A stretch of 64,000 nt of DNA, from assembly GCF_000383975.1 (NCBI RefSeq), contig NZ_KB913017.1, forward strand, positions 248,001-312,000, given 5' to 3'. Both the position numbers and the translations under genes were made by a program. The notes under the pieces are model-generated. The model saw only the letters and a program-made list of their open reading frames with translations, did not search any database and had not been told where the DNA came from. This DNA is from Natronorubrum tibetense GA33. GTDB lineage: Archaea; Halobacteriota; Halobacteria; Halobacteriales; Natrialbaceae. This document shows, piece after piece, positions 4,505 through 8,891 of this stretch; positions within the stretch are counted from its first letter, which is position 1; each line of letters opens with the position of its first letter.

Positions 4505-7500
4505 CTACCGGCTGAGGGCGACTGCGGCCCCGAACAGCACGAATCCGAGCACGACCGCGACGGCACCGACGACGGCGTCGCCGGCGAAGAGAAGTGTCCC
4601 GCCGGCGACGAGTCCGGCACCGCCACCACCGGCGGCCACCGGGATGCCGAGTTGCTGGACGGTACTCGAGTCGGATCGGCTCTCGTTCTCCGGTTGAGAC
4701 TGCTGTTGATTCCGTACCTCGTCCAAATCCGCACGGAGGGCTTCGATATCAGCGTCCTGGGTCTCCAACTCCGTCCCGTCGACGGCCGACTCGAGGTCCT
4801 CGATCTCTGCTGCGAGCGTGTCGAGTCGAGCGTCGTGGCTCTCGAGGTCGGTCGCGTGGCTCTCGAGTCGGTCCCCGTACTCGCTCGTCCGATCGTCGAG
4901 CAGTTCGGTACGGGCAGCGACCTCGTCGACTCGATCTTCCGCGTCGTCGATCTCGTCCGCGAGGCCCTCGATGCGGTCGGGGGCGTCGTCGAGCGCAGCG
5001 GTCTCCTCCCGCGTCGAGGTGATTTCGCGCTCGAGAGTTTCGATCGTCTTCTCGAGCGCCGCAACATCGTCTTCGGAGACGGACGTCTCCTCGAGCCTCG
5101 TCACGCGTTCGTCGACCGTAGCGACACGCTCGCCAAGGTCATCGACCGTCGTGTCGAAATTCCCGACCGTGTCGTCGAGGTCCCCGAGTTCGGCCTCGAC
5201 CGTCTCGGTAGTCGTTTCGACGCTCTCGAGTCGGTGCTCGACATCGGTGGAACGGCTGTCGACGGTCTCGAGATGCGACTCAAACTGATCCGTTTCGGCC
5301 GCCAACTCCGTCCGGAGATCGGCGACGGCATCCTCGAGGTCGTCCTCGAGCGCGTCGACGCGGTCTGTCAGTGTCGTCTCGACGTCCCCGAGTCGCGTTT
5401 CCACTTCCTCCACATCGGTCTCGAGCGTCCCGAGATCGCCGCCCACAGAATCGATCTCGGCAGTGAGCGATTCGACCGTCTCTCGCGTGTCGGTGAGCGA
5501 GTCGGACAGTGCTTCGACTGCGTCGTCGCTGACGGTCCCGCCGTCGAGTCGGTCGACGGCCGTCTCGAGCGCCTCGAGATCGTCTGCGACCGCCGTAATA
5601 TCGTTCGCAACCGCCTCGGTCGCGTCGCCGAGTTCACCCTCCAGATCGGCCATCGTTTCCTCGAGGCGTGACTCAAGCGTCGCTTCGAACGCCTCGACTT
5701 CGTCCGTGAGCTCCCCGACATCGCCGTCGATCGCCTCGAAATCGGCTGCGAGATCGTCGACCGTCGACTCGAGCGCCGTTCGGCCCTCGAGTTCGGCCAC
5801 CGTCTCCGAGACGGCCGTTATCGAGTCCCCGAGTTCGACGAGTTCCGCCTCGAGCGACGCGATTTCAGCTTCCACGTCGTCGACGCGGTCGCCGTCGGCT
5901 GCCGTCGAATCGATCTCGTCGATCGTCTCCCGAGCGTCCTCGAGTCGGCTCTCGAGATCCTCGGTGCGATCGGATACTGACTGCCGAACGTCGGCCACGT
6001 CGGTTTCGACCGATTCGATGTCGCCTTCGACAGCTTCGACGGTACGGTCGACGCGCTCGACGTCATCTTCGACCGTCTCGACCCGTTCGTCCATCGACTC
6101 GAGATCGTCCGTGACGGTTTTGACCTGATCGGCCGTCGACTCGAGATCGGTTTCGACCGACCCGACGCGGTCGTCCGTTTCGGCCAAGCGCTCGTCGACG
6201 CGCTCGAGCGTCGTCGCGGTCGCGTCGATCGCGTCGTCGAGTTCGGTGAGGCGGCCGTCGACGTTCTCGATCCGTTCGTCGACGGTCTCGAGTTCGGCAT
6301 CGACGGCGTCTATCTCGTCCGCGATCGTCGTTTCGACGGCGTCGATGGCGTTTTCGAGTCGCTCGCGTTCGTCGGCCGACCGCTCCGTCGCCTCGTCGAG
6401 CCGATCCGAGACGCCGGTGATCTCGACCGACTGCTCTTCGAGCCGCCCGGCGAGCCCTTTGGCTCGAGTCTCGAGTCGGTCGACGTCCTCGTCGACGCGC
6501 TCGAGCGCGTCGTCGAGTTTCGAGACGGTCTCCGTGACCGTCTCGAGGTCGGCTTCGGAGGGAGTTTCGGCGTCCAGCGCCTCCAGTTCGGACTCGAGCG
6601 CGTCCAGGTCCGTTCGCCGGTTCTCGAGTCGGTCGTCGAGCCGCTCCGTTCGATCGGTAATCGCCTCGAGATCGCCGGCGAGATCACCGATGCGGTCGTC
6701 GAGGGCCGCTCGTTCGTCCGCGGTGATTTCCTCGACCGACTCGAGGGTCGCTTCGACCGACTCGAGATCGTTCGTGAGATCCGTTTCGACCGACTCGAGG
6801 TCGTCCGTCAGTCCCGCTTCGACCGACTCGATATCCTCCGTCAGTCCCGTTTCGAGGGCGTCGAGATCCCCGTCCAGCCCCGTCTCGAGTGCGTCGAGGT
6901 CTCCCGTGATGTCCGCCTCGAGCGACTCGATATCGTCGACGAGCGTTGATTCCACTCCCTCGATATCGTCCTCGAGCGCGTCGAAGGCCGCCGACAGCCC
7001 GTCGAGTTCGTCCCGCAGGTTGCTTTCGAGTTCGTCGACCGTTCCCTCGCTCGCGTGCGTCTCGCTTTCGGCTTCGAGGTCCCGCAGGTCGTCGGCGAAC
7101 GCCTCGAGTCGCTCGTCGAGGTCCGCGACGGTCTCGGCGTCGGCCGCCCGCTCCTCGACGTAGTCGAGTTCCTCGAACGCGGACTCGAGATCGGTGCGGA
7201 CCGACTGTATCTCCTCGTCGCGGGTTGCGAGTCGGTCGAACAGTTGATCGATGGCGTCGTTCGACCGGTCGCGATCCGTCTCGGCCCCACTGCCGACCGC
7301 GTCGTCGAACGCGAGAGTCGTTCGGCTGCCCGCGCCACTCGCCTCGGCCGTGTCTATCGCGGGCTCGTCTCCGTCGGAGCCACCGCCGTCGGAACCGTTC
7401 TCCGACCACGTAACGTCCTCGTAGGCGTCGACGTCGTCCTCGGCGGCTGCGAGTGCCCCTCTGGCCGCACTCGAGGCGGGATCGTCGGCCAGACGGACCC

Positions 7501-8392
7501 CGCGAACCGAGAACGGCAACGGTGCGGCGTCGAACCGGCCGCCGAGCAGGTACTCGAGCCCCTCGACGGTCCCCGGCCCGGCGACTGCGATCGGGACGGC
7601 TAACCCCTGTTGGACGTCGTTCTCGTCGGCTTCGGTCTCGAGCGCGTCGACGACGTCGCCGATCAGCGCGTCGAACGCCTGTGCGAGCGCGCTCTCGATA
7701 TCGCCGGACGCCGCGTCGGGATCGAGCGTAAACTCTTCGAGCACGCTCGCGACCCGTGCGGGCTCGTGGCCGGTATCGCCGGCCGCACGCTGGACGACCC
7801 ACTCGCTCCCGTTGCCCACTGAGAACGCAAGCGCGGGAACGCCGTAGTAGGCCAGCGAGATGCTCGTCGTCTGCGGGCCGATACAGATCCCCAATCCGGT
7901 GTAGTTGTCGCCTGCGAACTGATCGTAGACGACGGCGAAGCCCCTGCTGGTCGGCGTCGCGTCGACACCGAGATCCGTGAACACCGATTCGAGGGCATCG
8001 CGGTGTGCGTCCGTCGGTTCCGCCGCGTCGACGACGGTTCCCGGCGTCGTGTAACAGAGTCGGTCGTCGTCGGTCTCGATCTCGAGTACGTCGTCGACGA
8101 GCGCCTCGAGGGCCGGTTCGACGTACTCGTCGACGGTGAGAACGCCGTGCGAAAACAGCGACTCGGGGGTTTCACCCGTCGCGTCGGTGACGGCGAGGGC
8201 CGCCGCCCCGACCGCGTAGGTGGTCTCGTCGTGTTCGACCAGTAGCTCCTCGTCCACCCCGTTACCGACCGACTCGAGGGTCTCGTCGTCGGTCGAAACG
8301 ACGACCGGCGGTACCGATTCGATCGCCACCCCATCGGCCGCGTCGGTAGCCGCACGGAGTGCCCCAGGTCCGATATCGAGACCGTGTCCCAT
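4505..8392 (-). CDS. Giant actin/Hsp70-like ATPase fused to long coiled coil and C-terminal membrane anchor
   Basis: Start ATG 8392 (MGHGLDIGPGALRAA) gives 1,295 residues; the further upstream ORF is Arg/Ser-rich and overlaps the promoter of the divergent gene. Residues 1-345 look like an actin/Hsp70-fold ATPase: phosphate-1-like GLDIGPGALRAA (4-15), phosphate-2-like GICIGPQTTSISLA (about 177-190) and adenosine-motif-like AVAGPGTVEGLE (about 289-300). An acidic Gly/Ser linker follows. Residues about 430-1235 are almost unbroken coiled coil, including successive 11-residue repeats such as LDALETGLTED. The last 60 residues hold two hydrophobic segments. The layout fits a membrane-tethered filament or scaffold protein. 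The fold call rests on motifs only; the cellular role is inference. Confidence 0.85.
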   Translation of the reverse strand: MGHGLDIGPGALRAATDAADGVAIESVPPVVVSTDDETLESVGNGVDEELLVEHDETTYAVGAAALAVTDATGETPESLFSHGVLTVDEYVEPALEALVDDVLEIETDDDRLCYTTPGTVVDAAEPTDAHRDALESVFTDLGVDATPTSRGFAVVYDQFAGDNYTGLGICIGPQTTSISLAYYGVPALAFSVGNGSEWVVQRAAGDTGHEPARVASVLEEFTLDPDAASGDIESALAQAFDALIGDVVDALETEADENDVQQGLAVPIAVAGPGTVEGLEYLLGGRFDAAPLPFSVRGVRLADDPASSAARGALAAAEDDVDAYEDVTWSENGSDGGGSDGDEPAIDTAEASGAGSRTTLAFDDAVGSGAETDRDRSNDAIDQLFDRLATRDEEIQSVRTDLESAFEELDYVEERAADAETVADLDERLEAFADDLRDLEAESETHASEGTVDELESNLRDELDGLSAAFDALEDDIEGVESTLVDDIESLEADITGDLDALETGLDGDLDALETGLTEDIESVEAGLTDDLESVETDLTNDLESVEATLESVEEITADERAALDDRIGDLAGDLEAITDRTERLDDRLENRRTDLDALESELEALDAETPSEADLETVTETVSKLDDALERVDEDVDRLETRAKGLAGRLEEQSVEITGVSDRLDEATERSADERERLENAIDAVETTIADEIDAVDAELETVDERIENVDGRLTELDDAIDATATTLERVDERLAETDDRVGSVETDLESTADQVKTVTDDLESMDERVETVEDDVERVDRTVEAVEGDIESVETDVADVRQSVSDRTEDLESRLEDARETIDEIDSTAADGDRVDDVEAEIASLEAELVELGDSITAVSETVAELEGRTALESTVDDLAADFEAIDGDVGELTDEVEAFEATLESRLEETMADLEGELGDATEAVANDITAVADDLEALETAVDRLDGGTVSDDAVEALSDSLTDTRETVESLTAEIDSVGGDLGTLETDVEEVETRLGDVETTLTDRVDALEDDLEDAVADLRTELAAETDQFESHLETVDSRSTDVEHRLESVETTTETVEAELGDLDDTVGNFDTTVDDLGERVATVDERVTRLEETSVSEDDVAALEKTIETLEREITSTREETAALDDAPDRIEGLADEIDDAEDRVDEVAARTELLDDRTSEYGDRLESHATDLESHDARLDTLAAEIEDLESAVDGTELETQDADIEALRADLDEVRNQQQSQPENESRSDSSTVQQLGIPVAAGGGGAGLVAGGTLLFAGDAVVGAVAVVLGFVLFGAAVALSR

Positions 8393-8549: not shown

Positions 8550-8891
8550 ATGGAACACGAACGCCAACTCGAGGCCGACCTCGAGGCGGCGATTCTGGAC
8601 GTCCGGCGGGACGACGACGAACTCGAGATCGGGCAGGTCAGCGAGTACCTGCTCTCCGAGGACCGTATCAATCGCTATCTGATCGGGCTTCAAGACGAGT
8701 GTACGCGCGCCTCGTTCTACTGTACGGCGACCAGGTCGATCGCCTACAAACCGGTTACGGGTGAGTCGCCGTCGAAACTCGTCGATACGGTTCCGGGTCT
8801 CGCCAACCGAAAACAGCTACGCGACTGGATCGTCGATCAGGAGTGGTCGTGGATTCACCCGCGATATCGGTGGCTGATCGAGTCCGAGTGA
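8550..8891 (+). CDS. Conserved haloarchaeal protein of unknown function
   Basis: Start ATG 8550 (MEHERQLEADLEAAI) gives 113 residues. The sequence is a compact soluble alpha/beta type with a motif-like VSEYLLSEDRINRYLIGLQ and a Trp-rich end (WIVDQEWSWIHPRYRWL). It diverges from the giant actin-like coiled-coil gene with a 157-bp shared upstream region, so the two promoters are close, but nothing links their functions. No Cys pairs, signal peptide or membrane segments. I do not recognise the family. Confidence 0.7.
   Translation: MEHERQLEADLEAAILDVRRDDDELEIGQVSEYLLSEDRINRYLIGLQDECTRASFYCTATRSIAYKPVTGESPSKLVDTVPGLANRKQLRDWIVDQEWSWIHPRYRWLIESE

Follow-up and report, generated by a model that had tools for sequence, protein, structure and literature searches.

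A haloarchaeal volactin-domain protein with a coiled-coil rod, a membrane tail and probably no active ATPase: a candidate tether for actin filaments

The locus described here raises the question of what is encoded by an archaeal gene that seems to connect, within a single chain, an actin-like domain to a membrane tail by way of a very long coiled coil, and whether such a protein still works as an ATPase. It lies in the window analysed, a stretch of 64,000 nucleotides from Natronorubrum tibetense GA33. The original prediction, made from the sequence of the window, proposed an actin/Hsp70-like ATPase with a built-in scaffold and anchor, in a form that it took to be unfamiliar.

Domain organization of the fusion protein

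The reading frame begins with an ATG at position 8392 and comprises 1295 codons and a stop (Table 1), with the start M-x-x-GLDIG being kept in orthologues. The predicted arrangement, in which a single chain starts with an actin-family domain, continues as a long coiled coil and ends in a membrane tail, was borne out by the match to the Pfam family PF25216 (Volactin), by the periodicity and by the hydropathy, and it recurs in many genomes. Among 87 distinct fusions the length ranges from 575 to 1313 aa (median 1024), and the rods, taken as the length minus head, linker and tail, span ~140 to 920 residues.

Table 1. Features of the fusion gene, with positions in the window and residues of the encoded protein.
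Feature	Residues	Position	Strand	Basis
Whole gene (volactin head, coiled-coil rod, membrane tail)	1295 aa	4505..8392	-	open reading frame, Pfam match, orthologues
Volactin-type actin domain (head)	1-317	7442..8392	-	full-length PF25216 match, residue counts, MamK alignment
Acidic Gly/Ser-rich linker	318-390	7223..7441	-	varies among orthologues; alignment, composition, periodicity
Coiled-coil rod	~391-1215	4748..7222	-	periodicity above shuffles; heptad-length indels
Linker from rod to membrane tail	1216-1249	4646..4747	-	low AF2 confidence; coil helix stops upstream
Gly-rich segment AAGGGGAGLVAGG, possible first membrane segment	1250-1269	4586..4645	-	invariant Gly columns; borderline hydropathy
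C-terminal transmembrane helix	1270-1294	4511..4585	-	Kyte-Doolittle 2.65; AF2 helix

The head matches PF25216 over the whole profile (1-321 of 321) with 410.8 bits and E=6e-123, far above the curated cut-off of 35 bits, and thus belongs to this family across its domain, with a trace of an ALP_N match alongside. Its match to the MamK model is weaker (E=9e-4), which puts the head nearer to volactin than to MamK and salactin. As a single sequence it matched none of the solved structures, while a profile built from 27 relatives reached the MamK structure 5ljw by sequence alone (E=8e-4), including the region around E143 and D161, and matched an FtsA in part (E=2e-3). The AF2 model of the head, calculated from an alignment of seven sequences only, has a pLDDT of 49, and with this model the best Foldseek match was the archaeal actin Ta0583 at E=0.066, with nothing below E=0.001. 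The model thus gives no confirmation of the actin fold, which the homology to volactin supports and which is presumably retained in three dimensions. Subdomain IIA and the C-terminal IA strand of the fusion heads stay near canonical volactin, with the same consensus residue in 56-67% of the columns. Three heads (L052, L053 and L058) lack most of the region equivalent to MreB subdomain IB (residues 35-73 of the window's protein), with the subdomain limits of MreB. A fourth member, L108, may also lack this region, its start being uncertain.

Residues 376-1235 contain 0.3% Pro and 34% Asp plus Glu. In all 84-residue windows tested between residues 391 and 1194, the hydrophobic period (3.37-3.64) stands out above the 95% level of shuffled sequences. 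Indels in the rod between close orthologues are a multiple of seven in 25 of 59 cases, against about eight expected if the heptad were ignored; lengths of 11, 22, 44 and 66 are also seen. Judged from these alignments, the rod varies in length while the register of the coil is respected. The coil would presumably dimerise. Within the heptad rod, residues ~487-550 (window 6743-6934, minus strand) form near-perfect 11-residue repeats, hendecads of the type DLDALETGLDG. The many coiled-coil and SMC profile matches on the rod were not taken as homology, since they are expected of any long coiled coil.

Of the two membrane segments originally proposed, the C-terminal one is clear, with a strongly hydrophobic stretch at ~1273-1291 (Kyte-Doolittle 2.65) that AF2 models within a helix of pLDDT ~80, and the second is only probable, as the preceding Gly-rich segment has a borderline hydropathy of 1.2-1.5 and the AF2 model of the tail shows a single transmembrane helix without deciding for or against another. 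The block AGGGGAG upstream of the C-terminal helix is conserved, with invariant Gly columns. In 74 of the 87 members a Lys or Arg is found within the last four residues, and by the positive-inside rule this basic end would be compatible with a hairpin whose C-terminal end lies on the inner side. The head would lie in the cytoplasm. No other protein was found to carry the tail motif at E<=4e-4, the weak matches lying at E 0.002-0.09.

Changes at the nucleotide site

MamK is reported to lose its ATPase activity when E143 or D161 is mutated (PMC5059902). In the alignment with MamK the counterpart of E143 is residue 150, an Arg in the window's protein. The Glu is present in all single-domain volactins (30/30 haloarchaeal and 16/16 others, i.e. 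46/46), whereas it occurs in none of the 87 fusions, in which position 150 is Lys (31), Arg (25), Thr (19), Ser (5), Gln (4), Pro (2) or Ala (1). The designation of the protein as an ATPase is left unsupported by this loss. At the position of D161 (residue 170 in the window's protein) Asp is found in one of the 87 fusions. Canonical volactin itself has Ser at this position (30/30 haloarchaeal, 16/16 others), and despite this Ser its filaments are dynamic in vivo (PMC10869688).

The phosphate-1, phosphate-2 and adenosine motifs that had been read from the sequence stand in part. Retention in the fusions was measured for residues that are nearly invariant across the 46 single-domain volactins: in phosphate-1, D6 (97%) and G8 (83%) are kept, with T9 at 26% and M10 and N11 at 0%; in phosphate-2, T176 (97%) survives in an otherwise degenerate loop (S170 1%, G174 8%, N177 6%); and in the adenosine loop G272 and G278 are retained at 100%, with G273 at 1%. 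A preferential loss of the nucleotide-motif columns was not seen in the fusions (p=0.25; p=0.49 among deep invariants, with a mean retention of 0.48 in both classes). As the motif columns are lost no more often than other deep invariants, general divergence could explain the erosion, and the argument for a loss of hydrolysis rests on the specific Glu and the loop residues. From these residues, the head may still bind nucleotide, while hydrolysis of ATP by it is unlikely, and with the Glu absent throughout the fusions it is unlikely that ATP turnover of its own would power a scaffold. The fusion is best described as a PF25216 Volactin-domain protein by model match, which is not an orthologue of volactin and is probably not an active actin ATPase.

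Origin, distribution and constraint

The fusion is encoded in 86 of 125 Natrialbaceae genomes, in one copy each and always with the rod attached, and is missing from the other 39. Close relatives (L031-L036) come from Natronorubrum, Haloterrigena, Natronoglomus, Halovivax and Natrialba, and divergent fusions occur in two further haloarchaeal families, f7 (G058, G171, G263) and f10 (G060, G281). The original prediction would have been refuted by homologues without the N-terminal domain in nearly all genomes. Such a pattern was not seen: all 86 Natrialbaceae members, which were found by the head, have no stop within the head match and open frames of at least 649 aa, and the tail motif turned up on no other protein at E<=4e-4. 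In 393 genomes sampled from the phylum beyond haloarchaea, matches to the Volactin model are limited to proteins of ~326-375 aa with a single domain, fragments and weak matches, and the scan of viral contigs found no relatives of the fusion.

Canonical single-domain volactin is encoded at a separate locus in 124 of the 125 Natrialbaceae genomes, and since it is near-universal its co-occurrence with the fusion carries no statistical power. The window's genome encodes a canonical volactin of 343 aa (L063 4741-5772; G000:C1:67740-68768), which shows 100% identity to its counterpart in G005 and 92-98% to the canonical volactins of other Natrialbaceae genomes. Searches of this genome with the MreB and MamK models found no actin-like gene besides DnaK and volactin, so that volactin is the sole known filament partner there. 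MamK-like second actins (E~1e-9, perhaps salactin) occur in families f5 and f12 (G075, G106, G114, G056) and not in the four Natrialbaceae genomes tested. In one genus of f4, genomes (G142, G237, G290) have two full canonical volactins each, and G142 has in addition a split third copy.

A tree was built from 33 fusions and 16 canonical volactins of haloarchaea and rooted on 16 volactins of other classes in the phylum, presumed to be from methanogens. It places all fusions in one clade (99/98 support, 100% of 200 bootstrap trees) that adjoins haloarchaeal volactin; the fusions do not group with the single-domain haloarchaeal volactins and hence are not volactin proper. Long branches among the fusions, flagged by the program, make the placing of the f7 and f10 members unsure, and long-branch attraction is possible. 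The simplest history compatible with this tree would be a single old duplication in an early haloarchaeon, with gain of rod and tail and later losses. Taken jointly, the architecture, the paralogy and the loss of the Glu can be held with high confidence.

Between Natrialbaceae genomes canonical volactin is 92-98% identical, as compared with 54-73% for the fusion heads, indicating that the two copies are under different constraint. For 14 close pairs dN/dS was 0.14-0.50 in the head and 0.26-0.43 in the rod, values that point to purifying selection on the fusion gene. About 20 of the loci examined share some neighbours, namely an MFS transporter and a Zn-ribbon-like ORF downstream and a MOSC gene upstream, and none of the neighbours is linked to the cytoskeleton. 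In G007, a genome of the same genus, the fusion is cleanly missing and the Zn-ribbon ORF and the MOSC gene lie 72 bp apart (L164 8449-8521, G007:C43). A divergently transcribed ORF of 113 aa upstream of the fusion (8550-8891, plus strand) was rejected as a partner, as it is present at only five other loci (75-96% identity), and it has no Pfam match.

A candidate tether for volactin filaments

Volactin filaments of H. volcanii are dynamic and contact the membrane by their tips, and the factors that bind them are unknown (PMC10869688). A copy of volactin that probably does not hydrolyse ATP, on a membrane-anchored spacer, is what a tip tether would be expected to look like. The protein is a duplicated volactin that has gained the long rod and the C-terminal anchor, and its head has probably lost ATP hydrolysis. 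In the scheme that we tentatively favour, at somewhat less than an even chance, the head would still recognise volactin and join or cap the end of a canonical filament, and rod and tail would hold this end at the membrane, with the length of the rod fixing the distance. MreB subdomain IB is normally part of the longitudinal contact, and a head that had lost this contact surface could join only one end of a filament, in keeping with a role as cap. More tentative still is the general form of this proposal, a “pseudo-actin tether,” in which a dynamic archaeal actin filament would be anchored to the membrane by a copy of its subunit that no longer hydrolyses ATP, with subunit, cap, variable-length spacer and transmembrane anchor in one chain. 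Since volactin is the only identified actin of H. volcanii (PMC7617734), whose filaments are anchored by their tips all the same, the fusion would serve certain lineages as an additional device rather than as the general anchor.

The same protein could be accounted for in other ways. Rather unlikely, in our judgement, is that the head serves as an adaptor for another cytoplasmic partner, comparable to the heads of FtsA or PilM, with rod and tail as a membrane spacer or an intermediate-filament-like element and without any link to volactin; the divergence of the head, the variation in rod length, the lack of a conserved neighbour and the loss of many canonical-invariant positions speak for such an adaptor; against it stand the closeness of IIA and the C-terminal IA strand to canonical volactin and the descent of the fusion from a duplicated volactin in genomes where volactin itself is retained. 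Self-polymerisation of the head apart from volactin, giving stable membrane-bound filaments that the coils bundle and space into a static cortical scaffold for shape or division, is likewise unlikely: most of the IB-matching region is missing from three or four members, and the heads diverge fast, unlike the filament-forming canonical volactin, even though every member has an actin-type head, coiled coils commonly bundle and a loss of hydrolysis would fit stable filaments.

That the protein is the active ATPase of the original prediction, in spite of the Glu missing from 87/87 fusions and the near-complete loss of Gly174, N11 and G273, appears very improbable, although D6, G8, T176, G272 and G278 are mostly kept. 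Least credible is a decaying or functionless duplicate, to which the 39 genomes without the fusion, the clean absence in G007 and the rapid divergence might point; it was rejected on the strength of dN/dS values below 0.51 for head and rod in all 14 pairs and of the intact frames, and the heptad-phase indels and the conserved Gly-rich tail also oppose it. A role in cell shape or the envelope, as first suggested, is possible.

FtsA has an actin fold and uses its C-terminus to attach a cytoskeletal filament to the membrane. It does so with an amphipathic helix and has no long coiled coil, whereas in the fusion a transmembrane helix follows the rod. MamK and MreB are single-domain ATPases, and although similarity between the profiles of MamK and the fusion head is detectable, nearly all fusions lack the E143 and D161 residues at the aligned positions. 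Closest is volactin (VolA, HVO_2015; PF25216; PMC10869688), whose model is spanned entirely by the fusion head and which forms the nearest clade in the tree; by contrast, volactin is a highly conserved single-domain protein of ~325-375 aa with the E143-matching Glu and without rod or tail, encoded by a separate gene in the same genome. Salactin, a haloarchaeal actin homologue with dynamic pole-anchored filaments and MamK as its closest relative (PMC10746226), belongs to a different actin branch from the fusion, and the window's genome gives no strong match to the MamK model beyond volactin. In Desulfovibrio magneticus, MamK and Mad28, an actin paralogue with a role distinct from that of MamK, work with long coiled-coil Mad proteins; these are separate chains, the late-stage ones without transmembrane segments (PMC12748827), whereas the fusion combines everything in one chain with its own anchor.

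The papers on volactin and salactin do not mention the fusion form in their main texts, and the other openly accessible articles found do not describe it either, so that a mention elsewhere is possible. The head is less isolated than supposed, being a paralogue of a described actin: it is already covered by Pfam, and the features that seem to be new are the conserved architecture of the fusion and the loss of the catalytic Glu. For the attachment of archaeal actin filaments to the membrane, the fusion offers a lineage-restricted candidate tether, for which G007 of the same genus is a natural null, and the variation in rod length provides a natural series that bears on whether the length of the spacer matters. 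If the proposal is true, Archaea would have built an actin-binding tether from a duplicate of actin itself whose ATPase was disabled, instead of enlisting an adaptor of unrelated origin.
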